From IMG/VR virus record IMGVR_UViG_3300009008_001351, positions 1 through 20,225 of that record: 20,225 bases of DNA; one strand, written 5' to 3'. This document shows positions 1-20,200 of this stretch, in pieces; within the stretch, counting starts at the first letter, position 1; the number at the start of each line of letters is the position of its first letter. Position numbers and translations under genes: made by a program. The stretch comes from a virus. The notes beneath the pieces are model-generated. The model searched no databases, was not told the DNA's origin, and worked only from the letters and a program-made list of their open reading frames with translations.

Positions 1-3
1 CCC

Positions 4-1461
4 ATGCCCGACGACACCAAGAAGTCCGCCGACCCCCTCGACATGCTCAAGGGGCGGGTCAAGCTCGACCCGGAGCCGCTGGAGAAGGCGCGCGGCTACA
101 CCGTGGGGACCATCCGCCAGTGGAAGGGCGGGAGCTACCAGAAGCAGGCAGATGGAAGCTGGAAGCCGGCACCGGGGGCCAAGCCGAAGGCCAAGGGCGG
201 CGGCTCGCCGGAGCGTGGACCCGCCAGCCGGAGGCTCCGCGAAGCCAAGCGGTCGCCCGCCGACGAGAAGGCCAGCCACACCGCTGTCCAGGCCCACAAG
301 GAGGCCCCGGAGGCGCTGGCGACCGTCGCGGCTGAGTTCAACGCCACTGGCGACTTGCCTGGAAGCGCCTTCTTGTGGTGGGAGGACAGCGGCTTGCCCT
401 TGGTGCGCCGTGGCTCGCTGACCAGCGCCCAGATGTCGGAGGTGCTGGCGATGGAGATGCTGGGCGAGGACTACAGCGAGAGGGGCTGGTCCGCGATCCG
501 TGAGCAGCCCACCGACACCATCAAGCGCATGGCCGCGCACATCAACAAGCTGAAGCAGACCAAGAAGTCCGAAGCGCCGACCTTCCGCATCGGCGGGGTG
601 ACCTACGCGCGGGAGAGCTACGTCGAGCCGCCTCACCTCAGCGGCAACCCCGGCATGAAGCTGCGCGGGGGCAAGAAGAAGGGCAAGTTCGGGAAGCAGT
701 CGGAGGCGGAGGCGTACGCGGACAACGCGGACAAGTCCCTGGAGCCGATGGAGAAGGCCAAGGGCTACCCCACCGGCACGATCCGCCAGTGGAGGGGCGG
801 CCCCCACCAGAAGCAGGCGGACGGAAGCTGGAAGCCGGTGAAGGGGGGCAAGGGCAAGACCGCCAAGCCGAAGAAGAAGCTCGCGAAGCTGGCGTTCTCT
901 GCTGACCCGCCCGCGAAGGTGGCTGCGGCGGTGGCTCAGGTCGAGGGCGGCAAGAAGATGGACAAGCTCATCGATGGGTGGTGGGTGGTCTCCAACCACC
1001 CCGATTGGATCGAGGTCCAGGCGGGGGAGGCCAACATCGAGTTTACTGCGGGGCAGGCTCGCGCGTTCCACGGCGAGTACGATCCGGTGGAGTGGGCCAG
1101 GGAGGGCTACGTTCCTCCGCACTTCACGTTCGGGCGCGACAAGGGGACTTGGTTTGCCGACTACGGCGAGGAAGGGTTCACCAACACCTTCGCTCACGGC
1201 AACAGCTTTGCTGAGGTGTGGCGCGCGGCCCACGCCAAGTACAGCAGCGCCACGAAGTCGCAGCGTCCCCCTGCTCGCATCGGGTCTGTGACCTACGTGC
1301 GGGAGGAGTACGCCGAGCCGCCTCACCTCAGCGGCAACCCCGGCATGAAGCTGGCGAACGTCGTTGAGGGCCACGTCACCGTCGAGGACGGCGGGCCTGC
1401 TACGGTGGGTGGCGTGCGGCGCATGGCCCCCGGACTGGAAGCCTGGGCCAACAAGGAGTAG
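4..1461 (+). CDS. Two-unit GTVRxW-module protein of unknown function (5' end uncertain)
   Basis: A 485-residue hydrophilic, Lys/Gly-rich protein built as two similar halves. Each half opens with the module seen in two other proteins here (residues 28-55 and 251-279: G-Y-x-x-G-T-I-R-Q-W, then Q-K-Q-A-D-G-S-W-K-P). Each half ends with a second motif, V-T-Y-x-R-E-x-Y followed by E-P-P-H-L-S-G-N-P-G-M-K-L (residues 208-220 and 438-450). The parts between differ: the first is helical and charged, the second richer in aromatic residues (around residues 322-400). I recognise no enzyme family. It sits directly upstream of the portal gene, and its terminal bases carry the portal ribosome binding site, so it belongs to the head operon. 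Shared modules with the giant proteins downstream suggest a virion-associated or packaged accessory protein (inference). The ATG begins 3 bases into the window, so the true start could be upstream. Confidence 0.75.
   Translation: MPDDTKKSADPLDMLKGRVKLDPEPLEKARGYTVGTIRQWKGGSYQKQADGSWKPAPGAKPKAKGGGSPERGPASRRLREAKRSPADEKASHTAVQAHKEAPEALATVAAEFNATGDLPGSAFLWWEDSGLPLVRRGSLTSAQMSEVLAMEMLGEDYSERGWSAIREQPTDTIKRMAAHINKLKQTKKSEAPTFRIGGVTYARESYVEPPHLSGNPGMKLRGGKKKGKFGKQSEAEAYADNADKSLEPMEKAKGYPTGTIRQWRGGPHQKQADGSWKPVKGGKGKTAKPKKKLAKLAFSADPPAKVAAAVAQVEGGKKMDKLIDGWWVVSNHPDWIEVQAGEANIEFTAGQARAFHGEYDPVEWAREGYVPPHFTFGRDKGTWFADYGEEGFTNTFAHGNSFAEVWRAAHAKYSSATKSQRPPARIGSVTYVREEYAEPPHLSGNPGMKLANVVEGHVTVEDGGPATVGGVRRMAPGLEAWANKE
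624..663 (+). repeat. 40-bp direct repeat, copy 1 (inside the first CDS)
   Basis: This 40-base stretch is identical to 1314-1353. The copies are 690 bases (230 codons) apart, so they are in frame and encode the same E-P-P-H-L-S-G-N-P-G-M-K-L motif. Identity at the third codon positions as well suggests a recent duplication or gene conversion. Confidence 0.9.
1314..1353 (+). repeat. 40-bp direct repeat, copy 2 (inside the first CDS)
   Basis: Exact copy of 624-663. Identity breaks off on both sides: one mismatch just upstream, and the sequences diverge completely after the shared Leu codon. Protein similarity continues upstream through the V-T-Y-x-R-E motif. Confidence 0.9.
1453..1458 (+). promoter_or_regulatory. 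Ribosome binding site of the portal gene
   Basis: AAGGAG lies 9 bases before the GTG at 1468 and overlaps the last codons of the upstream gene. It supports the GTG start and shows that portal translation is tied to the preceding reading frame. Confidence 0.7.
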
Positions 1462-1467
1462 CAGCCC

Positions 1468-3186
1468 GTGGCGATCCGTGACGACCTCCGGCGAATCGGT
1501 GAAGCAGCGCGCGTCGCGGCCACCGCCCGTGTTCGGGCTGGGCTCGATGCCGCTGCGGTTCGCGTGGAGCAGTTCGCGGACGGGCAGCGGGTCCGCGAGG
1601 TGGACAACCGCCTAGAGAAGGCAGCCGCCCAGGCGATCCGCTCTGGCAACGACGGCAACCACGACTTCGATGACCCGAAGGGGATCAGGTTCGACCCCTT
1701 CGACCTCGTCGCCGTGATGGGGTACCGCGACCGACCCTCCGCCATGACCTTCGCCGCCATGGAGACCGTGGGGACCACCGTCCCCGTGGTCGCTGACATC
1801 ATCCGCACCCGCGTCAATCAGGTGTGCATGTTCGTGCAGCGCCCAGAGAACCGGCACGGGTCGGGCTTTGAAGTCCGCCTCCGCGACCGTGGCAAGAAGA
1901 TGAGCAAGGCGGCGGAGAAGAAGGCGGAGGAGCTTCAGCGCCAGATGCTGAACTGCGGGCTGCCCGACCCCAACCGGGGCGGCTACCCCAACGACCCGCT
2001 GCTCACCTTCGCCAAGAAGTCCATCGCGGACACCCTGACCTTCGACCAGTGGTGCTGGGAGATCGTCCCCGACCGCAAGGGCAACCCCGCCTACTTCTGC
2101 ACCCTGGACCCGTCCACCATCAGGCTGGTGGACCCTGGCCTGCGCGCCCCCGACGACCCGTTCGCCGTACAGGTGGTCCACGGCTCCATCGTGTCCGACT
2201 TCACCCAGGACGAGTTGGCCTTCTGCGTCCGCAACCCGCGCTCCGGCATCCGCTCCTTCGGGTACGGGCTGTCGGAGACTGAGTCGCTGGTGCGCGAGGT
2301 CACCGGGATGCTCTGGGGCATCGAGTACAACCGCTCCTTCTTCAAGAACGGAGCGGCGAGCAAGGGCATCCTCAACTTCAAGGGCACGATCCCCGACCGC
2401 CACCTCCAGGCGTTCCGCCGCCAGTGGTACGCCATGGTCTCCGGCGTCCACAACGCTTGGCGCACGCCCATCACGAACGCGGAGGAGTTGCAATGGATCA
2501 ACATGCAGCTTTCCAACCGCGACATGGAGTACAGCGCGTGGCTGGACTGGCTCATCAAGGTGGCCTGCGCCCGCTTCCAGATCGCCCCGGAGGAGGTCAA
2601 CTTCAGCTACGGCAACGCCGGCCAGTCCCAGGCGATGGGGCAGCCCTCCATCGAGGAGAAGCTGAAGGCGTCGCGTGACCTGGGCCTGCGCCCCCTGGTG
2701 CGGTTCTTCTTCGACCAGTTGAACCGCCACTACCTGTGGGCGGTGGACGAGGACTTTGAGTCGGTCCCGGTCGGGCTGGACGAGAAGGGCGAGCAGGCTG
2801 AGGCGGAACTCCTCCAGCAGTTGACCTCCTTCGCCATGACCATCAACGAGGCCCGCGAGGTGCTTGAGCTTGAGCCGCTGGACGAGGACAAGGGCGGCGA
2901 GGTCATCGCCAACCCGACGTGGCTCCAGTACGTCCAGGCCAAGGAGCAGGCTGCCATGATGGGTGGCATGGGCGGCGAGGGCATGGAGGAGGGCATGGGG
3001 GACGACGGTGGCTTCGGCTACGACGACGATGAAGATGCCGGAGAATCGCCCTTCTCCGTTGACGCCCCCGGCCAGGAGGGCGAAGATTCCTACGAGCCTG
3101 CTGCTGCGAAGTCGGTGACGGGCCTTGAAACACGCGGTCGGAAGCGAAAGCGACAAGTCCGCCGCCAATACGAGGTCATCACCTGA
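1468..3186 (+). CDS. Phage portal protein (HK97-type-like)
   Basis: A 572-residue portal protein, the dodecameric ring at one vertex of a phage head through which DNA is packaged and ejected. The core around residues 120-460 has the expected features: the F-x-x-W-C-W-E-I-V strand with a following L-D-P-S-T-I-R element, the D-E-L-A-F-C-V-R-N-P-R segment, a Y-G-x-S-E-T-E-S-L helix, the F-F-K-N-G-A-A-S-K-G-I-L strand, and a late helix (W-L-D-W-L-I-K-V-A-C-A-R-F) followed by I-A-P-E-E-V. The arrangement resembles the phage_portal family of HK97-like phages. The C-terminal tail (from about residue 490) is Met/Gly-rich, then strongly acidic, and ends in a basic patch (R-G-R-K-R-K-R). The GTG start is chosen for its AAGGAG site. 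No terminase gene precedes it in the window. Confidence 0.88.
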   Translation: MAIRDDLRRIGEAARVAATARVRAGLDAAAVRVEQFADGQRVREVDNRLEKAAAQAIRSGNDGNHDFDDPKGIRFDPFDLVAVMGYRDRPSAMTFAAMETVGTTVPVVADIIRTRVNQVCMFVQRPENRHGSGFEVRLRDRGKKMSKAAEKKAEELQRQMLNCGLPDPNRGGYPNDPLLTFAKKSIADTLTFDQWCWEIVPDRKGNPAYFCTLDPSTIRLVDPGLRAPDDPFAVQVVHGSIVSDFTQDELAFCVRNPRSGIRSFGYGLSETESLVREVTGMLWGIEYNRSFFKNGAASKGILNFKGTIPDRHLQAFRRQWYAMVSGVHNAWRTPITNAEELQWINMQLSNRDMEYSAWLDWLIKVACARFQIAPEEVNFSYGNAGQSQAMGQPSIEEKLKASRDLGLRPLVRFFFDQLNRHYLWAVDEDFESVPVGLDEKGEQAEAELLQQLTSFAMTINEAREVLELEPLDEDKGGEVIANPTWLQYVQAKEQAAMMGGMGGEGMEEGMGDDGGFGYDDDEDAGESPFSVDAPGQEGEDSYEPAAAKSVTGLETRGRKRKRQVRRQYEVIT

Positions 3187-3194
3187 CCGCCACT

Positions 3195-3198
3195 GGAG
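3195..3198 (+). promoter_or_regulatory. Ribosome binding site of the 191-residue protein gene
   Basis: GGAG lies 9 bases before the ATG at 3208, in the 21-base gap after the portal stop. It selects this ATG over the overlapping alternative frame that opens at 3201. Confidence 0.6.
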
Positions 3199-3207
3199 AG
3201 ATGCAAA

Positions 3208-3783: not shown

Positions 3784-3786
3784 CTG

Positions 3787-4080
3787 ATGCGGCTGCGGGT
3801 CGAAGGAGCGCCAGGAGAACTGGCCTCCCGACCGGCAGACGCCCTGGACGCGCTCGCCAAGGCAGCGCGTCTGGACGGTGCCGACGACGACTGGCTGGAG
3901 AAGGCCCGTGCGGGCCTCCCGGTCGATCACGATGCGCGGTACCCGTTCATCGAGGAACTGGTGGAGGAGGCGGTGGACACCTACCGCCTCCTCCTCGTTT
4001 CGCTCCAAGAGAAGGCTCTCGCGGTGCTCGACGCCCGCATCAAGCCTGCCGTAGCGGAGCAGCTTGACCAGCTTCCGTGA
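3787..4080 (+). CDS. Small unrecognised head-region protein
   Basis: A 97-residue protein with a mostly helical, acidic sequence (L-D-A-L-A-K-A-A-R-L, then F-I-E-E-L-V-E-E-A-V-D-T-Y-R-L-L-L and a C-terminal A-V-L-D-A-R-I-K-P-A-V-A-E-Q-L-D-Q-L). The ATG is the first start after the previous stop, only 3 bases downstream in the same frame. No ribosome binding site is visible, so translation is probably coupled. Its stop overlaps the next gene's GTG (GTGA). The size and location would suit a head assembly accessory protein, but no family can be named. Confidence 0.6.
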   Translation: MRLRVEGAPGELASRPADALDALAKAARLDGADDDWLEKARAGLPVDHDARYPFIEELVEEAVDTYRLLLVSLQEKALAVLDARIKPAVAEQLDQLP

Positions 4081-4280
4081 GCGACCGCGTCAAGGAGGGT
4101 GTGAAGCCACCTCCCCCTCCTCCTCCCCGCGCACTCGCTGAGTGCCCCTGCGGCTACGCCAGCCCCCCAGATGCAGCCCGCTGCCGCAAGTGCCGCCGCC
4201 CGTTCGGTGAGCCGCCTACGGCGAAGGCCGCACCCGCGCCCATGCTGTACGCTGACTGGTACTACGGCATCTACAGATGA
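4077..4280 (+). CDS. Small zinc-ribbon-like protein with polyproline stretch
   Basis: A 67-residue protein with seven consecutive prolines at residues 11-17. A four-cysteine cluster follows at C23, C25, C36 and C39 (C-x-C...C-x-x-C), which resembles a small zinc ribbon. The GTG start overlaps the upstream stop (GTGA), and the stop overlaps the next ATG (ATGA), so it is locked into a translationally coupled set with the minor head gene. The C-terminal tail is aromatic (Y-A-D-W-Y-Y-G-I-Y-R). Zinc binding is inferred from the cysteine spacing. It might be an adaptor for a head or packaged protein; no function can be assigned. Confidence 0.6.
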   Translation: MSDRVKEGVKPPPPPPPRALAECPCGYASPPDAARCRKCRRPFGEPPTAKAAPAPMLYADWYYGIYR

Positions 4281-5242
4281 TTCTCGACCCCACCACGGCG
4301 GCTGAACTCAACCAGCTTGCCGCCGACCACCACACCGCCCTGCTGGTGAACCTGTTCGGTGAGGACGTGGTCCCCAAGGCGACCGTGGACCGCTTGCGGG
4401 CTCTGGGGCTCCTGGGGGCCTCAGAGGGCTACCCAGGCACCCTGAAGGCCGCGCACTCCTTCGGACTCGTCCTGGCGGCTCTGGAGGACCCTCTGGGGGG
4501 CTCTAGCCTCAGCCTCGCGGAGGTCCGCGCCAAGCTCGCCGCCCACCCGGTCCCCAGGACCGCTGTCGAGGTGCTGTCGGCCCAGGATGCGGCGCTGCGC
4601 GGGGCCACCGCCATTCGGGGGCTGGGGAACAAGGTGGGGGCGCACCTCGACCACACGCTCATCGAGGCCGACGCCGGCCTCCGCCGCGATATGCGCGACC
4701 TGATCAGAGATGCCGTGGGGGCGAAGTACGGCGACGCCGACGCCCAGGCACGCCTCAGCGCCCGTGCGGGGGACCGTGGCCTGGACCCGGAGTTCTTCGA
4801 CGGCGCGTTCCGCAACACGGTGCGCGAGGTCGCCTCCGACATCGGCCACGCCTCCGGTGACTGGGCCCGTGACCTCCAGCGGATCGCTCAGACGGAGTCG
4901 CACAACGCGATGCAGCACGGCATGGCGGAGCACTTCAAGGAGCAACTGAAGGGACAGCCGGTCCTCGTCTACAAGTCGATCCGGCCCACCGCCTGCAAGC
5001 ATTGCGTCCGGTTCCACACTGATGCCGCCGGCAACCCCCGCATCTTCCTGCTGAGCGACTTGGAGGCCAACGGGACCAACGTGGGCCGCAAGACGGCGGC
5101 GTGGCAGCCCGTGGTCGGCTCCGTTCACCCCTGGTGCGCCTGCCAGCTTGTCCGCGTCCCCCGGTTCCTTGAGATGCCCGCTGCGTGGATGCCAGGGGAG
5201 TCCGCGCCCACCGTCGTCAACGCCGAAGGCGTGGTGGTGTGA
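4277..5242 (+). CDS. Phage minor head / head morphogenesis protein (Mu F / SPP1 gp7 type)
   Basis: A 321-residue protein whose C-terminal half carries the MuF signature: a helix with R-I-A-Q-T-E-S-H-N-A (around residues 208-217), then Y-K-S-I-R-P-T-A-C-K-H-C with two cysteines, and a terminal H-P-W-C-A-C-Q-L segment equivalent to the family's HPxCxC motif (near residue 285). MuF-type proteins are minor head components needed for head assembly and are thought to stay with the portal and DNA. The N-terminal half is helical and not diagnostic. The ATG overlaps the previous stop (ATGA). Unlike MuF-toxin fusions known in other phages, no toxin domain is attached here, but an ART-containing gene starts 28 bases downstream. 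The family call is strong. Confidence 0.85.
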   Translation: MILDPTTAAELNQLAADHHTALLVNLFGEDVVPKATVDRLRALGLLGASEGYPGTLKAAHSFGLVLAALEDPLGGSSLSLAEVRAKLAAHPVPRTAVEVLSAQDAALRGATAIRGLGNKVGAHLDHTLIEADAGLRRDMRDLIRDAVGAKYGDADAQARLSARAGDRGLDPEFFDGAFRNTVREVASDIGHASGDWARDLQRIAQTESHNAMQHGMAEHFKEQLKGQPVLVYKSIRPTACKHCVRFHTDAAGNPRIFLLSDLEANGTNVGRKTAAWQPVVGSVHPWCACQLVRVPRFLEMPAAWMPGESAPTVVNAEGVVV

Positions 5243-5270
5243 ACGCTGGGTGACCGCTAACCTACGGCGG

Positions 5271-8200
5271 ATGATCACCCACGAAGAAGTCGCCAAGGGG
5301 CGAGGCTACCCGGTCGGCACGGTGCGGAACTGGCGTACTGGGCCTCATCGCAAGCGAGCAGACGGCACGTGGGAGCCGGTGACCCCGGCGGTGCGTGTGT
5401 CGTCGCGCAAGCCCAAGCCCAACAAGCAGCCCAACGGCAAGTGGAAGCCCGTCAAGACGCCGTCCAAGCCCAAGCCCAAGGCGAAGTCCCTCCTGTTCGA
5501 CCCCCGCCGCGTGGCGGAACTGTCGCTGAAGCCGGTGGACCCCGACGCCCACTACGATCCGGCGGTGGGCGGAGAAGGCAATCAGGACTACGCCTCCTGG
5601 CCGGAGATCCCGATCAAGGCGCTGGAGAAGGCCCGCAAGGCGCTGGGGACGACCGGGAAGCACTTCGCCTCGCCCAAGAACAAGGTGGAACTGGCGCTGA
5701 TGACGGCGGTCACGCTGTGGACCAACGGTCACGTCGCCGCCGTCCGCGACCCCGACAACTACGACGCCACCAAGGCCGCTGAGTCCATCGTTGACGGAGC
5801 CGGGAGGTTCTTCCTGCCTCCGGGGATGCCCCGCGAAGCCTACGAGGCGGCGGGCCCGCTGCTGAGGCGACTCGCCGCCGCCTCCCCGAAGCAGGAGGTC
5901 TACCGGGGGCTCGTCGTCAAGAAGGCCAGGGAGGTGGAGGCGGTGGACCGCCTCATCGAAGCGGCCAAGGCCGGCTACAAGCCGGAGTTCGACGTGCGCG
6001 GGATCGCCTCCTTCACCCTCACACCGGCTATCGCAAATCGGTTCGCGTCCATCAGCATGGCTGAGAACCACGTCCAGCCCCAGGGTGGGGTGTGGCGGCG
6101 GCTGGTCCTGACCACGGAGGCCCCTGGCGTCTACGTGGGCGACCTCTCCCGCTACAACGCGGAGGCGGAGGTGGTGTGCGCGCTCGACAAGGTCCGGGTG
6201 ACCGGAGTCTCGACCAAGGGCGACGGCATCATCCTCCAGTGCGAGCCGGTGCTGGAGAAGGGCGAGTCCATGGCAGGCTTCCAGCGCATCCTCGACCGCG
6301 CCTTGAACGAGCGTCTGTCGCGCCGTGAGGACGACGCCGACCTCAACAAGGCCAAGGGCTTCCCGGTCGGCACCGTCCGCAAGTGGGGCGACGGCAAGAG
6401 CTACAAGAAGCAGGCGAACGGCAAGTGGAAGCCGGTCATCCAGCCCCCCAAGGCGACCCTGGTGAACTCCGTGGACCGCATCCTGTCGCTCATCGTCAAG
6501 GACGATGGCAGCGGCTGGGCGGGCACGGTGGCCCTGTATGGCGCTGACGTGGTCTACGAGCAGGACGGTGTCCTCATGGGGCTCCGGGTGACGCCTTCGG
6601 CCCACGTCGTCCGCAAGCCCGTCCAGCGCCTGCCACTCCGCGTTGCCAGCGGCGACCCCAAGAAGTGGGTCAAGGACTCGCTGGCTCCCAAGGGGCTCCT
6701 GTACAACGGTCGCATCACGCCTAGGGCGCAGGCGCTGGTGAAGAAGCTCGACTCCTTCGCCTACCCCGCGACCGTGGAGGAGTTGGGGAGGAAGCACGTC
6801 ACGGAGGCACAGCGCGGCATCAAGCACCTCGATGAGGCCATGACGGTCGGGCCCACCGCCATGACGGACGACGACCTCTCCAGCTTGAAGGTGGTCAACG
6901 GGCGCTTGATGCAGACCAGAACGAACTTCGACGGCGAGGCGGACCACTACCTCGTCACGGGGTCGCGGGACGTGCTCCTCCGCGTGCTGTCCTTCATGGA
7001 GAAGCGCTCAGGCGCTTTCCAGACCAAGGTCATCCTCAAGGGCTTCAAGGAGCTTGATGCGCTCGACCCGGACGGGCTGATGGAGGTGGCTGCCGCCACC
7101 CGCCGGGACCACCCCGACGAGATGTCTCCCGCTGAACTCGCGTTCCTGGCGGCTGCGACGCTGTGGACCAACGGCCACGTGGCAGCCGTCCGCGACCCCA
7201 GCATCTTCGACCCAGAGCGCGCCCGCGCCGTGATCGGGGTCAGTCAGTTCAAGGTGCGGGAGCCCACGCAGGCGATCTACAGCGCATCACGCAGGACCCT
7301 CCAGCGCCTCGCCCAGATCGAGGAGGTGCGCGAGCCCGTGTTCCGTGGCCTCCGCCTCCCCAAGGATGAGTACGACCGCCTCGTCGCCGCCGCCAAGAAG
7401 GGGGAGCAGCCGGAGTTCGATATGCGCGGGCTGGCGTCGTTCACCCTGCACGTGGAGAACGCCACCGACTTCGCCAGCTACGGCGCAAAGCCAGTTGGTC
7501 TATTCGCCCCCGTTGACGGGTCATCGGTCCCCGTCGTCCTGACCTCGCGCAAGCCGCTCAAGGGCTTCGACGTGCGCGACTTCTCGATTCACGATGAAGG
7601 CGAGGTGGTGACCGCCCTGGAGACCGTGAAGGTGGTCGTCGCGGCTCCCCCGCGCACCGTGAGTGATGCGCCGACGCTTCTCATCTTCGACCCGGTCAAG
7701 TACGCCCCCGTCAGCAAGGCCAAGATGCAGTTCCCCGGTATCCAGCGCGCCCTTGATGAAGCCTTCGACCAGCCCCTCCACAAGCCCAAGCCCAAGCCCA
7801 CCCTGAGCAAGGGGAAGAAGTTCCCTCCAGGCACGGTGCGCCAGTGGCAGGACGGCAAGCAGTACATCAAGCGCGCCAACGGCGACTGGGAGCCCGTCCA
7901 CCCCGGAGCACGCAAGCCCGCCGTCCCCCGCACCACCAAGCACGAAGGCACCCGCAAGGACGGCACCAAGTACACCTCGTACCGCCGCTCCCCGGAGCAG
8001 GTAGCCGAAGCATTACGCCGCAAGAACGAGCGGGTCGCGCATCTGGAGAAGCGCCTCCTGACCGTCCAGCGCAAGATGAAGGTGGACGGCCCCACCAACC
8101 AGTCCGCGCTGTGCCTGTGGGTGATGCAGGACACGGGGATGCGCGTGGGTGGAGGCAAGGACGGACACGGGAAAACGAAGGGCAAGCGCACCTACGGGAC

Positions 8201-8645
8201 GACCACGCTGCTGAAGCGGCACGTTCGCATCACGCCCGAAGGACAAGTTGTGATGACGTATCCCGGCAAGGGCGGCAAGCGCCAGTCCCACAAAGTGACG
8301 GACACGGCGCTGAACGCGCTGCTGAAGATGCGTCACGCATCAACCGCCAAGGCCAACGACCCGCTGTTCCCTGACGCCACTAGGAGGACGGTGAGCGCCT
8401 ACGTGAAGCAGTTTGACGCTCGCTACGTCCCGAAGGATCTGCGCTCAGCGGTTGCCAGGAGGACCGCACGCAGCAAGATTGATGCGCTGAAGAAGCGTCG
8501 CCCCCAGGACCCCAAGCGGGCCGTACACTTGATCGCGGCGCACGTGTCGAAGAAGCTGGGAAACACGGAGCGGGTGGCGCTCAGGGACTACCTGGGCCCC
8601 GCTTTCATCGAGGCCGCACTGAAGGAACTTGGCTATGACGACTGA
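5271..8645 (+). CDS. Giant fusion: two ADP-ribosyltransferase-like domains and a C-terminal type IB topoisomerase
   Basis: A 1124-residue multidomain protein. GTVRxW modules lie at residues 8-37, 360-389 and 847-876, with a half-module at 52-61. ART-like domain 1 has V-Y-R-G (R212), S247-F-T and E298-A-E300; ART-like domain 2 has V-F-R-G (R692), S723-F-T and E776-G-E778. Both show the R-S-E pattern with the E-x-E loop typical of arginine-modifying ADP-ribosyltransferases. Both are preceded by a shared T-L-W-T-N-G-H-V-A-A-V-R-D-P segment. An unrecognised domain lies at about 395-570. The C-terminal part matches type IB topoisomerase: R958 (M-R-V-G), the T-Y-G-T-T-T-L region, K1000 (G-K-G-G), R1058 (K-D-L-R), N1098 (L-G-N-T, as in bacterial family members) and nucleophile Y1107. 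The ATG at 5271 is preferred, since earlier in-frame starts lie within the minor head gene. Delivery with the phage DNA is inference. Confidence 0.82.
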   Translation: MITHEEVAKGRGYPVGTVRNWRTGPHRKRADGTWEPVTPAVRVSSRKPKPNKQPNGKWKPVKTPSKPKPKAKSLLFDPRRVAELSLKPVDPDAHYDPAVGGEGNQDYASWPEIPIKALEKARKALGTTGKHFASPKNKVELALMTAVTLWTNGHVAAVRDPDNYDATKAAESIVDGAGRFFLPPGMPREAYEAAGPLLRRLAAASPKQEVYRGLVVKKAREVEAVDRLIEAAKAGYKPEFDVRGIASFTLTPAIANRFASISMAENHVQPQGGVWRRLVLTTEAPGVYVGDLSRYNAEAEVVCALDKVRVTGVSTKGDGIILQCEPVLEKGESMAGFQRILDRALNERLSRREDDADLNKAKGFPVGTVRKWGDGKSYKKQANGKWKPVIQPPKATLVNSVDRILSLIVKDDGSGWAGTVALYGADVVYEQDGVLMGLRVTPSAHVVRKPVQRLPLRVASGDPKKWVKDSLAPKGLLYNGRITPRAQALVKKLDSFAYPATVEELGRKHVTEAQRGIKHLDEAMTVGPTAMTDDDLSSLKVVNGRLMQTRTNFDGEADHYLVTGSRDVLLRVLSFMEKRSGAFQTKVILKGFKELDALDPDGLMEVAAATRRDHPDEMSPAELAFLAAATLWTNGHVAAVRDPSIFDPERARAVIGVSQFKVREPTQAIYSASRRTLQRLAQIEEVREPVFRGLRLPKDEYDRLVAAAKKGEQPEFDMRGLASFTLHVENATDFASYGAKPVGLFAPVDGSSVPVVLTSRKPLKGFDVRDFSIHDEGEVVTALETVKVVVAAPPRTVSDAPTLLIFDPVKYAPVSKAKMQFPGIQRALDEAFDQPLHKPKPKPTLSKGKKFPPGTVRQWQDGKQYIKRANGDWEPVHPGARKPAVPRTTKHEGTRKDGTKYTSYRRSPEQVAEALRRKNERVAHLEKRLLTVQRKMKVDGPTNQSALCLWVMQDTGMRVGGGKDGHGKTKGKRTYGTTTLLKRHVRITPEGQVVMTYPGKGGKRQSHKVTDTALNALLKMRHASTAKANDPLFPDATRRTVSAYVKQFDARYVPKDLRSAVARRTARSKIDALKKRRPQDPKRAVHLIAAHVSKKLGNTERVALRDYLGPAFIEAALKELGYDD
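5712..5753 (+). repeat. Near-identical 42-bp repeat, copy 1 (ART domain duplication)
   Basis: These 42 bases differ from 7158-7199 at only three positions and encode the same 14-residue motif (T-L-W-T-N-G-H-V-A-A-V-R-D-P). They mark the start of the conserved part of each ART-like domain. Confidence 0.85.
7158..7199 (+). repeat. Near-identical 42-bp repeat, copy 2 (ART domain duplication)
   Basis: This is the second copy of 5712-5753. All three differences are synonymous third-base changes, whereas the catalytic regions downstream have diverged clearly at protein level. Confidence 0.85.
8622..8626 (+). promoter_or_regulatory. Ribosome binding site deciding the start of the ParB-sigma protein
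   Basis: AAGGA lies 8 bases before the ATG at 8635, inside the last codons of the upstream gene. It favours this ATG over the in-frame TTG at 8629, which is only 2 bases from the site. Confidence 0.6.
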
Positions 8646-11600
8646 CTACCCCCTGCTGCGCCGCTTCTACGGCAACCAGTACGTCGATGAGTGGCTGGAG
8701 GAGTTCCGCCGTGACCGGGAGGACCAGGGGGACGTGGTCGCCAAGTCGCACCGCCTCGCCAAGATGCTCCACGCCTCCCCGCAAGATGTGGAGGACTTCG
8801 TCATCAAGGGCCGGCGGTTCCCGGTGGGGACGGTCCGCACGTGGAAGGGCGGCAAGTTCCGCAAGGAGGCTGACGGGAAGTGGGTCGAACTGGCTGAGGG
8901 CGGCGACGGGCCCGACCACGATGAGGACGGCAAGCACACGCCCCGCGAGGAGGCCCGCGACCTCGACCCCACCCACGCGGAGGAGTTCTTCGACGTGCCC
9001 GGTCAGCATCTGCGGGTGATCGGCAAGGGCGGCGAGCCCGTGATGAAGGCGCTGGCGGAGGCCCTGGAGAAGTCGGACGACCTGTGTGCGGCCCGCCCCG
9101 GCGTCTGCCACGGCAACATGGGGATCTCCCGCTCCGTGATGCCTCAGTTGAGCGAGGACCCCATGGAGGAGTTCCTCATCAAGCTCGCCAAGGACGGCGT
9201 CAGGGTCACCCGTGGGCCCGCTGAGGTCGGCAAGCTCCGCGCCTCCCAGATGGAGATCCTGACCAGCAAGGTGCTGGGGATGAGCGGGTCGGTGAGAGGG
9301 GGCGGCTTCAGCGGCATCACCACGCCGATCATTGTCTCCAGCGACGGCTTCATCGTGGACGGCCACCACCGCTGGGCCACGCTGATGACGCTCGACCACG
9401 TCAACAAGATGGAGGTCTACCGCGTCGATATGCCGATCGACAAGCTGCTGGTGGCCTCCGCCCAGGCGGACGGCGTCGAGTTCCGCTCGCTGCATGATGA
9501 CGGCGGCGGCAAGGAGACCAACGAGCAGCGCGTCGAGATGCTGAAGAAGGCCATTGCCAAGTCCAACTACACCCCCGAAGGCAGCAAGACCGTCGAGTGG
9601 GCGAAGCAGGGCGGCAAGGCGCGCAAGTCGTTCCGGCCCGCGATCCTCATCAAGGGAGGCCCGTTCATCGGCCCCAGGGGCGGCAAGTGGGCTGATGCGA
9701 AGCACACGATCCCCTACAAGGCCCCCCGCGCGAAGAAGAAGGCCAAGCCGGCCCCGCGTCGCACGAAGAAGGACCCTGCTCCACCCTGGTGGGAAGATGA
9801 GAGCGAACTGGACTTCGGCATCGGCGCGACGGAGAAGGCGCTGAGCAAGGCCATGCAGAAGCCCCCCGGCCAGGGCTGGCAGCGCATCCCCGGCGGGCGC
9901 ATCGCCGGAGGTCGCCGTCGCCTCACGGGGCGCTCTGACCGTGCCTACGAGTACTGGTACCCCAACCAGCTTCGCGCCCAGTCGAAGTACGGGTGGGAGG
10001 TTGATGAGAAGGCCAAGCCGAAGGCCGGAGACCTCGTCTACGTGGGGAACGGCAAGACCGTGTACCGCGTGGTGCCGGAGCACGCCAAGAAGGACCGGAG
10101 CGAGACCTGGGTCCGCGCTGAAGCATCAGGGCGGTTCCGCCGCGTCAAGAAGTCGGCGCTGAAGAAGCTGAAGAAGGTCAAGCGCGGTCGCCCGAAGGTG
10201 CCGTCCAAGGTGCCCCCGAAGAAGGCCAGGGGGAAGAAGAAGCCGGCCAAGCAGCCGGCCCCGAAGCCGCCCAGCCGCCGCAAGGCGAAGGTGTTCAAGG
10301 ACAGCAAGGCCGACAAGGACCGCAACCCGGTCCTGTGGAACATCGAGAACGGCAAGTACTACCTCCAGCGCCACAAGGACGCCGACCGGAAGAAGCAACA
10401 GTGGGGCATCTACGTGCCCCCCGGCCATGAGAAGCAGTTCATCGAGGAGTTCCGGGGCCAGATCATTGGCGCGGCCAAGCGGACGGCGAAGTCGTTCGGG
10501 ATCGAGGTGGTGAACCGCGCCGTGCTGCCGACCAGCGACTACCCCGGACGCATCGTGGGCGAGTCCCCCACGGTGACCGCCACCACGGTCGCCTACGACA
10601 ACCTCATCAGCGCGGCCACTATGGGGCTGGTGATGGCGCTGTCCACGTACACCGGGGGACGCCCCTTCGCGCCCCGGTCCTGGGACTACTGCCTCGCCTA
10701 CGCCCAGGCGCAGGCCAGGACGGAGATGGGGGCCGGTGCGAACGTCACCACGCGCCAGATGGGGATGCTCAAGGGCTTCTTCGCGGCCAAGGCCCGCGCC
10801 TACGACCGCCTCAAGGGCCGCGCCCCGACCAACAAGGACATCGCCCGCGAGTGGACGGTCCTCAAGCGGGACGTGTTCAGCGGCAAGATGGGGACCTACA
10901 GCGGCCTTGATGAGGACGGCAAGAGGGTGACCCACCGCCAGGGGTCGCAGAAGATCCCGATGGACGAGTGGTACGTGAAGGACAGCGAGGGCAACCCCGT
11001 GGGGAAGCCCAAGCCGGGTCTCCTCAAGCTGGCAGACGTGATGCAGAACCTCGCCCAGGGCAACAAGGTGGCCGACAGCGAGTGGCTGATCCAGTACGGC
11101 TCCAGCGCGCCAGAGGTCGAAGCATCTACGCTCCCGCTGGGCGAGCAGCTTCGCCGCCGGGACGAGGTGGAGCGCGTGGTGGCCCGCATGGACAACATGC
11201 TGGGCGACGCGCTGTGGATGAAGCTGGGCCTGGACGACGTGGGCGGCAAGGGGGCCACCACGGTGGAGATCGCGGACGCCCTTGGCATCTTGCCGAAGTC
11301 GGCAGCCTCCACCCGGCGCAAGGCGGTGGGCGAAGTCCTCAAGCAGGCCCGCGTGCAGGCGTCGAGCATCGCCGCTGACTTGGGGATCGAGCGGACCCCC
11401 CGCGCACCCCTGGGGAGGCGCGAGGCGTTCATCAAGCAGGCGTGGATCAAGGACATCGAGGCGGACGCTCCCGCGCGCGTGGAGGTCGGCACCGGCCCGT
11501 CCTGGCGCGACTTGATGGAGCGGTTCGGAGGCTCCCAGGAGCGCGCCATGATCTACGCCGCCGCCGCCAAGGAAGGCCGCGCCGACGAGGTGGCTGCCAT

Positions 11601-12234
11601 CTTGGAGCGGGAGGCGAAGCAGAAGGCCAGTGCGGCGGAGTCCCACATGGTCCGCGAGCTACGCGCCGCCGTCGAGCGCAAGGCCGCTGTCCGCGAGTTC
11701 CACCGCATCTCGCGCCAGTACAAGCCGGTCGGGCCGGCGGCTGACGTGAACCCCTACCTCGACCTCGGCGTCGAGCGGGTCCCTGGAGGCCAGGGGACGG
11801 CCCGGTGGCCGGCGGTCGGTCCGCTGCCGAAGGACGGGCCCACCTCCCGCACGGTCAACGAGGGCCCCTCCTGGCAGCCCCAGGACGACGAGAACCCGCC
11901 GCACACGCCCTGGACGGGTGCGACCTACGACGTGGCTCTGAACGTCGCCCTGGACCCGGACCTGTCGCGCTTGCGGATGCTGCGCGCCATGTACCAGATC
12001 GAGCGCGCCGTGCCGCCTGATGCGACCCCGGAGCAGCGTGCGAAGATGTACGCCAGGGGGCCCCAGCCCAGGTCCACCTTCCGCAAGCCTGGGAAGCCGG
12101 TCCTCCGCAAGCCCGCGAAGCCCGCGAAGCAGGCCAGGAAGAAGAAGGCCAAGCGGGGCAAGGGCAAGACGCGCAAGACGCGCAAGGCCCTCCTCGCCGC
12201 GCTCCCCCTCCACGCGGCATCACCCGACACGTGA
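8635..12234 (+). CDS. Giant fusion: ParB-like domain and sigma-70-like region with lysine-rich tails
   Basis: A 1199-residue protein. A GTVRxW module lies at residues 58-86. A ParB-like domain follows (about 120-285), with the family core V-D-G-H-H-R-W (D242-W247) after a hydrophobic strand and before V-Y-R-V-D-M-P-I. Further short modules are I-G-P-R-G-G-K-W (within 339-362) and G-W-Q-R-I-P-G-G...Y-E-Y-W-Y-P (414-443). A Lys/Pro-rich stretch covers about 503-553. Residues 648-906 resemble a sigma-70 factor: region 2-like Y-D-N-L-I-S-A-A-T-M-G-L at 654, a region 3-like helix pair (703-742) and a region 4-like HTH (T-V-E-I-A-D-A-L-G...S-T-R-R-K-A-V, 875-903). The C terminus is a histone-like Lys-rich tail. 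The gene overlaps the previous one by 11 bases. ParB is well supported; sigma homology is by pattern only. Confidence 0.8.
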   Translation: MTTDYPLLRRFYGNQYVDEWLEEFRRDREDQGDVVAKSHRLAKMLHASPQDVEDFVIKGRRFPVGTVRTWKGGKFRKEADGKWVELAEGGDGPDHDEDGKHTPREEARDLDPTHAEEFFDVPGQHLRVIGKGGEPVMKALAEALEKSDDLCAARPGVCHGNMGISRSVMPQLSEDPMEEFLIKLAKDGVRVTRGPAEVGKLRASQMEILTSKVLGMSGSVRGGGFSGITTPIIVSSDGFIVDGHHRWATLMTLDHVNKMEVYRVDMPIDKLLVASAQADGVEFRSLHDDGGGKETNEQRVEMLKKAIAKSNYTPEGSKTVEWAKQGGKARKSFRPAILIKGGPFIGPRGGKWADAKHTIPYKAPRAKKKAKPAPRRTKKDPAPPWWEDESELDFGIGATEKALSKAMQKPPGQGWQRIPGGRIAGGRRRLTGRSDRAYEYWYPNQLRAQSKYGWEVDEKAKPKAGDLVYVGNGKTVYRVVPEHAKKDRSETWVRAEASGRFRRVKKSALKKLKKVKRGRPKVPSKVPPKKARGKKKPAKQPAPKPPSRRKAKVFKDSKADKDRNPVLWNIENGKYYLQRHKDADRKKQQWGIYVPPGHEKQFIEEFRGQIIGAAKRTAKSFGIEVVNRAVLPTSDYPGRIVGESPTVTATTVAYDNLISAATMGLVMALSTYTGGRPFAPRSWDYCLAYAQAQARTEMGAGANVTTRQMGMLKGFFAAKARAYDRLKGRAPTNKDIAREWTVLKRDVFSGKMGTYSGLDEDGKRVTHRQGSQKIPMDEWYVKDSEGNPVGKPKPGLLKLADVMQNLAQGNKVADSEWLIQYGSSAPEVEASTLPLGEQLRRRDEVERVVARMDNMLGDALWMKLGLDDVGGKGATTVEIADALGILPKSAASTRRKAVGEVLKQARVQASSIAADLGIERTPRAPLGRREAFIKQAWIKDIEADAPARVEVGTGPSWRDLMERFGGSQERAMIYAAAAKEGRADEVAAILEREAKQKASAAESHMVRELRAAVERKAAVREFHRISRQYKPVGPAADVNPYLDLGVERVPGGQGTARWPAVGPLPKDGPTSRTVNEGPSWQPQDDENPPHTPWTGATYDVALNVALDPDLSRLRMLRAMYQIERAVPPDATPEQRAKMYARGPQPRSTFRKPGKPVLRKPAKPAKQARKKKAKRGKGKTRKTRKALLAALPLHAASPDT

Positions 12235-12289
12235 GGATGAGGGGCGGCTGCCGTGTGCAGCCAAGGGGCCGGGTGGCGTCAGGCAGTAC

Positions 12290-13942: not shown

Positions 13943-14251
13943 ATGCCCGCGTACAATCTGCTCAGATGCTCCCCGACGCCGCCCTACCGGCGTTACGCCT
14001 GCACGGTCCTCGCTGACGACGCCGCCCCTGATGGTTTCCGCGTGGTGGACGCGGACTCCGACGTGGTGGACGCGGAGTTCATGTACGGGCTCCGTGCGGC
14101 CCTCCGTCGCCCCGTCAAGGTGATGACGGGCGTCACCCTGGACCATGAGACCCAGGAGTCGGTGGACATCCGGCGACCCGGCGACGAGAACTACCTCGCG
14201 GCGGCTGTGCGGCAGGTACCTGGGACCCTGCTGGGAGGCATCAAGCTGTGA
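13943..14251 (+). CDS. Unrecognised 102-residue protein
   Basis: A 102-residue soluble protein with mixed composition. AGGA lies 7 bases before the ATG. Its stop overlaps the GTG of the giant downstream gene (GTGA), so translation of the two is probably coupled. Visible features are Y-R-R-Y-A-C-T-V-L near the N terminus and two V-V-D-A repeats (R-V-V-D-A-D-S-D-V-V-D-A). The C-terminal half suggests a beta strand (V-K-V-M-T-G-V-T-L) and a helix (E-N-Y-L-A-A-A-V-R-Q-V). No family or function can be assigned. Confidence 0.6.
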   Translation: MPAYNLLRCSPTPPYRRYACTVLADDAAPDGFRVVDADSDVVDAEFMYGLRAALRRPVKVMTGVTLDHETQESVDIRRPGDENYLAAAVRQVPGTLLGGIKL

Positions 14252-17200
14252 AGCTCGTCATCCTGCCCCCTGACGCCGACGACGACCTCGTCCGCAAGGC
14301 GCGCGTCGCCTGGAACCGTGGACGCATCAAGCCGGGTCACAAGTGGATTCGGCGCGTGCGGGTGTTCCGCAACGGCAAGGCGGACTGGAACCACTACTAC
14401 CCCGACGACGACCTCCCGAAGGTCCGCGCGAAGGCCCAGAAGAAGCTCGATGACCGCAAGAAGCGCGGGCTGAGCAACCTGGGGCTCCCGACGCCCGACG
14501 AGACCAACAAGCCCATCGGGGACTTCGACCGGGACTTCCCCAAGGTGGCCGGCAAGCGCCGCCCGCTCAAGCGCCTCACGCAGCCCTACATCGCCAGCCT
14601 CCTGCCTGGGGACTCCAAGAAGCCGCTCAAGCTGTCCATGAGCCCCACCGTGCTCGCGGAGTACCACCGTCAGGTTGCAGAGCATTACGGCGACGACGAG
14701 GACCCCAACCTCCTGGGGAAGCCGATCTCGCCTCTACGGGCGGCTGAGGTGGCTCTACAGCAGCTTCCGCCCGCCGCCAAGTCCCTCCTGGCGGGGCGGG
14801 TCAAGGAGTTGCGGTTCGTGGTCGCCGCTGATGACAAGCGGTTCGTGGACCACCCCAAGTCGTTCAGCTACGTGAACAACAGCACGGGCAAGATCACCAT
14901 CGCCGTGGACCGGGTCGGCTTCCTGCACCCGCACGGCGAGGCGAGGATGCGCGGCGGGCTGTTCCCCGTCGAGGCGATCGTCCACGCGCTGGGCCACCGG
15001 CTCCTGGCGACCATCAACCTCAAGAAGAAGCCCAAGGGCTACAAGGGCCCCTGGGGCGACGACTGGGCCCGCCTCGCGCACGGTGATGCGGGCCGGGAGC
15101 CGGGTGTGACCCTCAACGCGAAGTCGAGCCCCGCTGAGCGGTTCGCGGACAGCTTCGCGGCGGCGGTGCTGTTCCCCCAGCAGCTTGCTGCAAGCTCCCC
15201 CCGCACCTACGACTTCATGCGGCAGTTGCTGGACAACGCCATCCCGGCCCGCGAGAGCGACGACCGCGTCCCTGGCCTCCAGAAGGAGCGCATCGGGGAG
15301 TTGAAGAAGAAGAAGCCGTCCCAGAAGAAGCTCGATGCGCTCGACAAGGCGATCAAGGAGGGACGCGGCCTCGACCAGATGGCGGACGACGACCCGTCCC
15401 TGACGTGGTGGCGCAAGGATGCGGCGGAGAACCACGTCCAGCGGCTGCTCCGCACGGAGGAGGTCCAGCCGTCGTCCTTCACCCGCCTGGACCCGGCGAC
15501 CCTCGACGGGACCGGCAACAAGAAGCGGGACCGCTTCTTTGAGTGGTCCGTCAACGGGCGAACCATCTACATGCGCGTGGGCCCCGTGGGGAGCAACCAC
15601 CCCAAGTGGGACCCCGCCGACCCGGAGAACGCCCAGGACCGCCTGTCGGTCGCCAACTTCAAGGAGATGTGGACGGAGGAAGGCGAGCCCATCGACACGT
15701 GGCAGGCGTGGTGGTACCTGACCCAGGACGACCCGCCGGCTGAGGCCGACGAGTTGATCACCTTCACCGCCAAGCAGAACGTGGGCGGGCTCAACCGCAA
15801 CTACGCCGCCATCAACAAGTGGCGCGCGGCGACGGTCCTCAACCAGCTTGCGGCGGCTGCCTACGGCGGCAAGAAGAAGGGCAAGGACGCGAAGTTCCGC
15901 GATCCGCTGAAGGCGGCGGCGATGCTCCCGGCGGAGATTTCGCTGCGCGAGTACCGCCAGCGGAGCGGGGCCGTGACCCTCGACCGCTGGGAGATCAGCG
16001 GCGAGTCGGCGCTGAAGAAGCTGTCCAAGACGCCCCCGACCGACCCGGCCCGCAAGGGGCTCCTGCGCGAGATCGCGGCCCTCCAGCCGTTCACGGAGCG
16101 CCGGCAGGCCCGCCTCCCCACCGGCAGGTACGGCGTCACGAACTTCGTGATGTCAGCCCTGCCGCCGGGATCGGCGCGGAGCGGCTACGGCGAGTACCAG
16201 ATCCCGCACTTCCAGGCGCTGTTCTACGACAACCCCAACCCGGACGGCACCAGCACGCGCATCATGGTCTCCAAGGGCGAGGCCGGGAACTACTTCATCA
16301 CCGACCCGGTCCTCAAGGAGTTGCTGACGCCCAACGGCGAGGCGATCAACACCGCCGACGACTTGAAGAAGGCGAGCATCCTGGCCGCTCAGAGCCGTCG
16401 CACGGCGTGGGCCAACGTGGCGGTGCCGCCGACCAACAACTCCGACACCTTCCTGCGCTACCACGTCCACGTCATGTGGGACGGTCGCGGGTCGCCGCGC
16501 ATCCTGGGTGATGAGTGGCGCACCATCCTGGGGAAGGACGAGCCCCGGCTGGAGGACTTGCTGAACCGCGAGGGCAAGGTCAAGGGGCCCGTCGTCAAGT
16601 TCGACCGCACGGTCAAGACCCCCCAGGTGGGCCGCGTCCCCAAGGTGGGCGACCGCGTGATGCTGAAGGCCAAGGCCACTGAACTGGGCCGCAAGGACGA
16701 CACCGACGTGATGGTCGAACTGGTCCGCATCTCGCGCGACGACCGGGGCAACAAGAACTTCATCTTCTCCGCCGTGGCCGGCTCCGGGTTCGGTGGTCGG
16801 CGGTTCGTGCGGACGGGCGACCGGGCGGCGCGCATGGACACGCGGGTGATGATCCCGCCGTTTGAGCCGAAGCCGCTCGACCACCACCCGCTCATGTTCT
16901 CCCACTACGCCCTGGACCTCCGGTCGGGCAAGTTCACCAAGCCGCAACTGCGCCTCCTGCTCCCCAACGATGGGTCGGTGTCGCGGTTCGCGCTCACCCA
17001 GCGCCCCGGCGTGACGGTGAACGACGACGGCACCATCGACGTGGACCTCGCCAAGTTCCACCGGCTTCGCCAGGAGTTGCCGGCGCTGACGATGACGGCC
17101 GGCGCGGAGCGCCTGATCTCGCAGACCATGCGGAAGATGGTGGAGGACACCCCCAAGGCCGACCGCTGGCTGGAGCCCGACGACGTGGTGCCGGAGCACC

Positions 17201-20200
17201 TTCGCCAGCTTGGCGCGACGGGGGTCAAGGCGACCGCCCCGTGGGGCGACATTGCCTACGGCAACCACCAGCGCGAGTTCATCTCCGGCTTCTTCGCCGG
17301 CAAGTACCCCCAGCGCAAGCTGGTGTGGCACGGACCGGGCACCGGCAAGACCCCGGAGACCACGGTCGCCATGGAGGTCGCCATGGGGCGCAAGGACCCC
17401 GCCGACCCGTCGAAGCCGCATCCGCTGGCTCCCAAGCGGTGCTGTGTCGTCGTCCCCCCGCCGACGATGGAGAACTGGGGCGAGGAGATCGGGACCTTCG
17501 GGTCGGGAGCCGTCGTCATCGGCACGCACCCGCACGTGTCCATCGACAAGTACCTCGCCAACCCGGAGGACTACGACAGCAAGTTCGTAGTGATCGGCCA
17601 TGAGTACTGGACGGGCCACGCGCCGGCTCTGAAGAAGTCGGGCCTGTTCGACGCACTCATCGTGGACGAGATCCACAAGGGCACGAAGAAGGACTCCAAC
17701 GAGCGGCTGAAGGCTCTCCGCAAGTGGGCCCCCGACATGAAAGCCGTTGCGCTGCTGACGGGGACGCCGATCACCAAGGACACCAGCGACATCCTCCCCA
17801 TGGTCCAGTTGTTGACCAACAACGAGGTGTGGGGCTCGATGGACAAGAAGGATTTCGCGGACACCTTCCTGATGGAGACCCCGACCCTCCGCACGGTCGG
17901 CCAGACCGCCAAGGGCAAGGGCCCGAAGAACTTCATCAAGCCGGAGTACTTGGACGAGTTGGCCGGCAACATCGGCGCGGTGGCCGACATTGCCACGCCG
18001 GCTGACATCGTGGACAAGGTGCTCCCTGCCGTCCGCATTGGCGACACGGATCAGGCGGAGATCGTGGGCGTCGGTGCGGCGCTCTACAACTCCGTGATGT
18101 CACGGATGAGCGCCCACGACCGCGACCTGATCGTGTCGGGGTCGGTCGCCTCCCAGGAGGAGTTGGACCAGCTTGTCTCCAGCACGGGCCGGCAGGCGAT
18201 GACGACTGCCCGGTACTACACGAACACCCCCGCGTACAAGCCTGGGTCCATGGAGCGCACGGTGGGTGCGCCTGGGGCCCGCCGCACCATCGGCGCGGCG
18301 CAGTACGTGACCTTCACGAAGCGGGTCCCCGGCACGCGCCGGGGGACGTGGTCGGAGACCACGGAGAACCTCCGCACCCCCGACCCCAAGCAGTTGTTCG
18401 ACAAGCGCAAGCGCGGCAAGCGGGCCGGCAAGTGGCCGACCCTGGCGGAGCTTGGCGACGAGCAGGCGGCGCTGTACGGGCTGCACTTCGCGGACGTGAC
18501 CGGGACGTTCGACTACAGCACGATCGCGGACACGCGCATCACGCCGGCCCAGCGGAAGGCGATGAAGGACGCGGGTTGGCCCGCTGGCGCGGTCGCCAAC
18601 CCCGATGGGGGCCCGCCGGGGCTCCGCTGCCGGGGCTGGTCGGAGCCTGTCGGGCTCGCGGACACCGCCGTGGAGGCGCTGAAGTTCCAGCAGTTGTACG
18701 CCAGCCTCATCGACCAGAAGCTCCACCCGGAGGCCGCGCTCACGCGGGCTGCGACGGAGACCGGCATCTCGACGGAGGCGGGTGAGAAGCTGCTGTACAC
18801 CCACCCCAACGCCGTCAAGCACCACCGCGTCATCAAGGAAGGCGGCATCGAGGTCGAGGAGGGGTTCACCCTCTACGCCCACAAGGGCGACGGCTGGCGC
18901 TGCTACCTGCCGAAGGACTGGGACCCGCGCACCAACGCCCCCCTGCCGGGTGCGAAGTCCACCATGGACCCTGGGATGCGGAAGTGGCGCGACAAGCAGG
19001 ACTTGATGTGTACCAAGGGCGCAGCGAAGCCCGAAGCCGTCCGCAAGCGCCTGGAGCGGTTCTTCGACGCCGCCGGCCCCGGCCCTGACGGCGAGCGTCA
19101 GGTGGTCCTGTTCGCCAAGAACGTCTTGACGGGCACGGGCGTGCTCCAGAGCGTCCTCCGGCGCATGGGCCTGCAAGATGCCAACGAGGCGCTGCCTGGG
19201 TTCGCCAACTACGACCCCAAGGACCCCCGCGCCAAGACCGGCGCTCCGGCCAAGCGGTACTTCGTGACCTACGGCGGCTCGCAGGCGACGACGGGCGTGC
19301 GGGCGCTGAACTCCGAAATCTTCCGCAAGGTGAAGGACGGAGGCCGGGACACCCATGAGAGCCGCTTCGTGGGCCGCACCAAGCAGGGTGGCAAGAGTTG
19401 GCGCGTGTACGAGGGTGATGCGGCGGAGAAGGGCGTGACCATGGCCCAGTGGTCCGACAAGGAGCGCGACAAGATCAAGGCCCAGTTCAGCATCGAGGTG
19501 CCGGAGAGCTACGTGAAGGACGACGACGGCGTGCGGTACTTCTACGGGTCCCGCACCTCCCGCAAGATCCTCAACAAGATCGCGTCCTACCCCGACCCCA
19601 GCAAGGTGACCGACAAGGCCACGGCGGACAAGATCAAGGCCCAGATCGCGGAGCAGAAGGCCAAGTACATCATCGAGGCCCGCAAGAAGGCGATCACCAA
19701 GCCGCCGCTGACGGCGAAGCAGATCGAGGTGTTCAACAACGTGGTCGCCGTCGTCGCCTCCGACGCGGCCAAGGAGGGGCTGAACTGGGGCAACGCGGGC
19801 GAGTGCATCGAGTACGACGTGCCCCAGTCCCCGATGGACGAGTACCAGCGGATCGCCCGCTCTGCGCGGATGCTGCCGAAGGTGGTCGCGGACAAGCTGA
19901 TGGGGACGCCGAAGAACCCCGGCCCCTTCGCCAAGATCAGGGCCCAGGAGCGGGCCCTGTTCAAGACGGCGCGAGCCCACGGACCGGAGGGGTTCATCGC
20001 CAAGTCCACCGTGATGGGCGAGGCGTTCAAGCGCCCGATGGGCGTCGAGCAGGCGCTGGACATCGTCGCCCTTCGGGCGGCGGCGGGCGCGACGACGGCG
20101 ACCTCCCGCGAGGACATTCGGCTCTGGGACGCCATCCGGGGGCGGGCCGACTCCGCTCGCACGTTCGGAGCCCAGGAGGCCCTGGCCGCGTTGCAGGAGT

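Follow-up and report, generated by a model that had tools for sequence, protein, structure and literature searches.

A phage gene encoding two ADP-ribosyltransferase-like domains fused to a type IB topoisomerase: a variant of the polyvalent proteins and probable virion cargo

We report that a linear 20.2-kb virus contig from an environmental sample (IMG/VR record IMGVR_UViG_3300009008_001351, positions 1 to 20,225; G+C 68%), referred to here as the window, that is, the whole stretch of 20,225 nt analysed, encodes a 1124-aa protein in which two ADP-ribosyltransferase (ART)-like domains and a type IB topoisomerase (TopoIB) domain are joined in one uninterrupted frame (coding sequence 5271..8645, + strand). 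That the anatomy of this ART-ART-TopoIB protein is real, and represents a new architecture inside a known class, is well supported. Specifically, the fusion is not isolated and belongs to the polyvalent proteins as defined by Iyer et al. 2017 (PMC5512222); it is a variant of that class with TopoIB as a module unmentioned in the 2017 description, the main text of which has no topoisomerase (the sole occurrence is in the title of a reference). Moreover, the protein, whose gene lies beside the capsid genes, most likely travels in the virus head and enters the host cell together with the viral DNA. Finally, we regard it as probable that we are dealing with a polyvalent polyprotein, carried as cargo in the virion of a tailed phage with an SPO1-type portal, and that it would be cut while the head matures and leave the particle with the DNA.

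The protein would add control of DNA topology to the presumed repertoire of injected phage enzymes, in which a topoisomerase would be a new item. A possible rule of tag plus cleavage site, described below, would make virion cargo predictable from sequence. How the cargo is delivered and separated is something that we infer and that is directly testable, and the ART-ART-TopoIB protein offers a direct test of the separation of multi-enzyme cargo.

Domain organisation of the ART-ART-TopoIB protein

The protein is organised as tag-ART1-tag-middle region-ART2-tag-TopoIB (all features on the + strand), and each unit opens with a glycine/aromatic tag that comes straight after a [LIVMF]xK[ASG] motif. 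The first candidate cleavage motif, VAKG (residues 7-10, 5289..5300), lies 9 residues ahead of the GTVR of tag copy 1 (RGYPVGTVRNWRTGPHRKRADGTWEPV, residues ~11-37, 5301..5381), and is followed by ART1 (5670..6212; R212, S247 and E298/E300). The second, LNKA (residues 358-361, 6342..6353), precedes tag copy 2 (KGFPVGTVRKWGDGKSYKKQANGKWKPV, residues ~362-389, 6354..6437), a middle region without recognisable family (6438..7103; no Pfam match up to E 10 for the segment 6306-7103) and ART2 (7113..7700; R692, S723 and E776/E778). The third, LSKG (residues 845-848, 7803..7814), is followed by tag copy 3 (KKFPPGTVRQWQDGKQYIKRANGDWEPV, residues ~849-876, 7815..7898) and the TopoIB catalytic domain (7956..8642; R958, K1000, R1058, N1098 and Y1107). 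An earlier note on this DNA, made from the sequence alone, had named these catalytic residues, all of which are at the positions that it gave, and had missed the three tag copies.

The topoisomerase IB domain

The C-terminal domain matches Pfam PF01028 (Topoisom_I; E 1.4e-12, over the curated cut-off) and, among PDB sequences, the variola/vaccinia topoisomerase (E 1e-5), and its five catalytic residues are invariant in seven aligned cargo TopoIBs. An AlphaFold2 (AF2) model computed from an alignment of seven related phage sequences had a predicted local distance difference test (pLDDT) value of 86 and a predicted TM-score (pTM) of 0.83. Topoisomerases lead the Foldseek matches of this model (variola, E 8e-9), and its best solved relatives are the variola, human and bacterial topoisomerases IB (Z about 17-21; human Top1, Z 21, root-mean-square deviation 3.0 over 225 aligned positions). 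By sequence and model we thus agree with the earlier note that the domain is a type IB topoisomerase, and its intact residues predict catalytic activity. Enzymes of this family require neither ATP nor metal.

The ADP-ribosyltransferase-like domains

The two ART-like domains share 42% identity across 264 aligned positions (E 1e-45), and both carry R, S-x-T/S and ExE in this order and with the usual spacing (R-S-E type). Neither has a match in Pfam or PHROGs, or a meaningful match among PDB sequences. Profile-profile comparison with hhalign against ten T4-type ModA/ModB proteins gave a score of 33.7 (P 2e-4) for the two window domains, the alignment placing R212 over ModA R72 and S247 over ModA S96; when a third relative (from contig L047) was included the score was 43.2 (E 9e-6), whereas 200 column shuffles did not exceed 19.5 (mean 11.6), the reversed profile gave 16.8 and unrelated alignments from the same phages gave 14-17. 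The pattern R...S[FTS][TSY]...A..F[AS]...ExE, a loose one composed with both groups already known, picked out of 181,125 residues nothing but the window ART pair and seven ModA/ModB proteins of the T4 type, and had no match in 20,000 shuffles. The earlier suggestion of two R-S-E (ExE) domains is thus borne out by the identity of the pair and by the ModA/ModB match, and both are very probably R-S-E ARTs, for which NAD+-dependent transfer is predicted. ExE predicts arginine specificity in the ART family, and the window ARTs are predicted to be arginine-specific.

Searches with tblastn for relatives of the ARTs in viral contigs, genome contigs, plasmids and phages found none; phage matches at E 0.2-0.6 were DNA methylases and were discarded as chance. 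The relative in L047 (E 1e-7) was met through the portal search described below; here an ART of the window type adjoins InPase and zincin-like domains and is cut by the contig end.

Genomic context and TopoIB in related phages

The window begins with an open reading frame (ORF) with two copies of the window tag (1..1461, +), followed by an SPO1-like portal gene (1468..3186, +), small genes, a gene for a MuF-like minor head protein (CxxC...HPxCxC; 4277..5242, +) and, directly downstream of this, the ART-ART-TopoIB gene. Downstream are a second multidomain protein with a ParB-like domain and a sigma-70 region-4-like domain (8635..12234, +), small genes and a huge protein with an SNF2-type helicase (14248..20225, +). 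Disparate enzymatic domains (two ARTs and TopoIB) share one polypeptide, which is encoded among head genes and other polyvalent proteins (portal, MuF-like, SNF2 and ParB-like). The position directly after the MuF-like gene, near the portal and ahead of further multidomain proteins speaks for reading the product as cargo. The MuF-like gene is conserved in related phages; its product had no Pfam or PHROG match, and the MuF label is therefore at motif level only.

Relatives were collected by portal similarity (SPO1-portal-type contigs). A TopoIB close to the portal, as part of the head-gene cluster, is encoded by six related contigs, five of which join it to partners other than ART: InPase-tag-TopoIB (L008), tag-TopoIB-InPase-tag (L048), InPase-tag-TopoIB-tag (L056), zincin-like-tag-TopoIB (L046) and RelA/SpoT-TopoIB (L072), while in L058 the TopoIB is cut by the contig end. 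In L008 the TopoIB gene lies directly between the MuF-like gene and a homologue of the 8635-12234 gene. Most of the contigs are fragments, and several overlap or stem from the same phage, so that frequencies are not meaningful. In a phylogenetic tree the cargo TopoIBs and the standalone jumbo-phage TopoIBs form separate groups (97/93). A tblastn search of INPHARED for TopoIB gave no match even at E 10, although Pfam does detect TopoIB in jumbo phages, and a portal search of genome contigs for the host gave no match.

No second protein with the exact ART-TopoIB domain order was found in the sequence searches, and the open-access literature searched for topoisomerase IB, ADP-ribosyltransferase and phage gave nothing relevant; within these searches the fusion is undescribed, and the earlier note likewise knew of none.

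Tags and a candidate cleavage motif

The ~27-aa tag GTVRxWxxGxxxKxxxGxWxPV precedes every catalytic unit of the ART-ART-TopoIB protein and occurs in neighbouring genes as well, and the related phages have at least four further short tag types. The [LIVMF]xK[ASG] motif is exactly 9 residues ahead of GT[VI]R in all six window tags of this family (A), while the distance is 4-6 residues in most family-B tags and 10 in most family-D tags. Considering all loci, the motif occurs at most 22 residues upstream in 53 of 63 tags, where the motif density of these ORFs would predict ~9, and in loci fetched after the motif had been defined it precedes 27 of 33 tags (hand count). Moreover, the major capsid protein carries the motif near its N-terminus, in the form L[NKQR]K[AG], in every contig where this protein was found (12 of 12) and in Lysinibacillus phage LysYB1, and the portal protein has the motif at its N-terminus (11/11 in one portal set, and most of a second set read by eye). 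These capsid and portal N-termini carry the motif without a tag. Both LysYB1 and Chryseobacterium phage MA9V-3 are cultured phages with the portal/capsid family of the window phage, and MA9V-3 encodes tag-bearing proteins.

Prohead proteases commonly cut the N-termini of capsid and portal proteins, and we therefore infer that cutting takes place at the [LIVMF]xK[ASG] motifs, which would make the protein a polyprotein. A more general cargo code would be that a glycine/aromatic tag after hydrophobic-x-Lys|[Ala/Ser/Gly] brings any enzyme, within a polyprotein, into the procapsid, where the prohead protease responsible for capsid and portal maturation also sets it free, with enzyme sets including TopoIB and ARTs being freely swapped; the chances of this being correct are, in our judgement, slightly below even.

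Comparison with known systems

As in the polyvalent proteins defined in 2017, several unrelated enzymatic domains are combined in one large phage protein encoded near head genes, the relatives of the window phage carry the hallmark InPase, RelA/SpoT, zincin-like and SNF2 domains, and injection with the DNA is predicted (PMC5512222). InPase (PF18823) and RelA/SpoT are listed there as phage-only domains, and as phage-type polyvalent domains predicted to be packaged in the virion. The window protein differs in having ModA/Alt-type ARTs and a topoisomerase, Alt-type R-S-E ARTs being absent from genuine polyvalent proteins according to the 2017 description, and in having LxK-preceded tags ahead of its units, for which no description was found there. 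It also resembles the MuF-fused ART effectors (PMC9503650, where packaging is predicted for ARTs with genes close to those of the head) in that an ART of the Alt/VIP2-Mod kind is tied to a MuF head module; unlike in these effectors, the window ARTs are in the next gene (4277-5242 for MuF-like versus 5271-8645) and are joined to TopoIB.

The window ARTs share the R / S-F-T / ExE signature with T4 Alt, ModA and ModB and match the ModA/ModB profile, but are two tandem copies fused to a topoisomerase and too divergent for Pfam. With the TopoIBs of the jumbo phages PaBG, Lu11, Motura and NCTB (phrog_23460; mentioned in PMC7824862) the window domain has the active-site R, K, R and Y in common. The jumbo-phage enzymes are encoded by separate genes (544-580 aa) with their own N-terminal region and form a separate tree group, whereas the window TopoIB consists of the catalytic domain alone, joined to cargo enzymes.

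Proposed function and alternatives

The polyprotein would be synthesised late together with the head proteins and would enter the procapsid through its glycine/aromatic tags. The prohead protease would then cut after hydrophobic-x-Lys, shortly before every tag, to yield tag-ART1, tag-middle-ART2 and tag-TopoIB, and these products would be ejected along with the DNA, on the model of T4 Alt and the DarB class. T4 Alt is packaged in the head, injected and acts on host RNA polymerase. In the new host the ARTs may modify host proteins, with RNA polymerase as precedent, and the ATP-independent TopoIB may relax the entering or newly transcribed genome, both activities being predicted from intact catalytic residues. 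Since it does not need ATP, TopoIB could act from the moment of DNA entry.

The earlier note had also proposed a link between modification of a host target and relaxation of the incoming genome. Its entry setting is retained, as action on the incoming genome and the host at entry is the most likely setting given the genomic context; a coupled enzyme is less likely, considering the varied TopoIB partners in either order and the candidate cleavage motif before each unit. As the partners vary and swap order in the relatives, co-delivery fits the fusion better than a coupled reaction.

Several points weigh against a cleaved and injected cargo protein or against parts of its anatomy. The analysis rests on a 20-kb fragment, a single contig; it shows the gene, its domains and catalytic residues, the TopoIB fold, the place in the head cluster, the exchange of partners, the tags and the motif ahead of them, while packaging, cleavage and ejection are predictions. 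No prohead protease was identified within the window, the literature searched held nothing usable on the prohead-protease cleavage site of SPO1-like phages, and the ART-ART-TopoIB protein lacks the zincin that has been proposed to process polyvalent proteins as a rule; moreover, the tag patterns are partly hand-made. The ModA/ModB match spans just ~47 columns around R and S, with ExE falling downstream of the aligned stretch, and AF2 modelling of the ART from a two-sequence alignment gave a pLDDT of 37.7, too low to be informative on the fold. The N-terminal DNA-clamp domain of classical TopoIB is unrecognisable in the window protein; the modelled part begins at variola residue ~61, with a short remnant (RKDGT...Y) upstream of the catalytic domain.

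The cargo might also stay whole, with the LxK motif being part of the tag and ART and TopoIB acting together, e.g. with TopoIB holding the ARTs on the phage DNA where arriving host RNA polymerase is modified. This would agree with the single polypeptide, with DNA binding by TopoIB and with the motif mostly accompanying tags, of whose fold it could be part; given that TopoIB partners and their order change among the relatives, and that the motif is found without a tag at capsid and portal N-termini, we think it rather unlikely. A phage TopoIB can serve replication inside the cell, since the four jumbo phages carry standalone genes and that of Motura adjoins an SSB gene, and the ART-ART-TopoIB protein could correspondingly be an ordinary intracellular enzyme, not packaged, for late replication or host change, encoded amid head genes by chance. 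This we hold to be unlikely, as TopoIB lies beside MuF-like and portal genes in several contigs, is fused to InPase and RelA/SpoT domains of the packaged type, shares tags with the neighbouring proteins and groups apart from the jumbo-phage enzymes in the tree.

A role of TopoIB in the packaging or ejection of the DNA, where it would relieve the torsion of the packed genome, and not in the host phase would suit a gene adjoining portal and MuF-like genes and an enzyme independent of ATP and metal. The co-cargo (ART, InPase, RelA/SpoT, sigma-like and ParB-like) has host-phase functions, and no TopoIB was detected in many relatives, though most of these contigs are fragments, which together render such a role improbable. 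A reading of the C-terminal domain as a tyrosine recombinase or telomere resolvase would draw on the common superfamily and on the next fold matches (Cre/Xer folds, Z about 13-14; tyrosine recombinases, maximum 14.4). With Foldseek E about 1e-8 for topoisomerases versus 0.04 for Cre, Z about 20-21 versus 14 and Pfam Topoisom_I over its cut-off, a recombinase or resolvase is very improbable, and the site-specific recombinase reading was rejected on the fold ranking. A polyvalent, cleaved and injected cargo polyprotein is thus the reading that we prefer.

Neighbouring genes and other observations

The 8635-12234 product consists of a tag, the ParB-like domain (phrog_2859, E 1.2e-24), two more tags and a conserved C-terminal domain with a weak match to sigma-70 region 4 (SigA, E 0.003), and is possibly an injected sigma-like factor. 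The sigma-like domain recurs in L006, L008, L045, L049, L053, L055, L057 and L059. In L045 (3263-8218) it is part of a 1652-aa polyvalent protein together with InPase and an S-adenosylmethionine lyase domain (PF23780), for which anti-restriction is a possible role. The SNF2-type protein at 14248-20225, cut by the contig end, has an N-terminal tag-like segment and a degenerate zincin-like motif (HALGH); relatives have an intact zincin-like HExxH, which reads HEIAH in L006.

Among the other contigs, L010 encodes a fusion of a MuF-like protein with InPase and a poly(A)-polymerase/tRNA nucleotidyltransferase head domain (3195-6488), L019 a tagged polyvalent protein that by eye resembles an H-Y type ART and a GNAT domain (9854-13612), and L011 a terminase-like ORF with, by eye, an intein-like insert (2491-5652).

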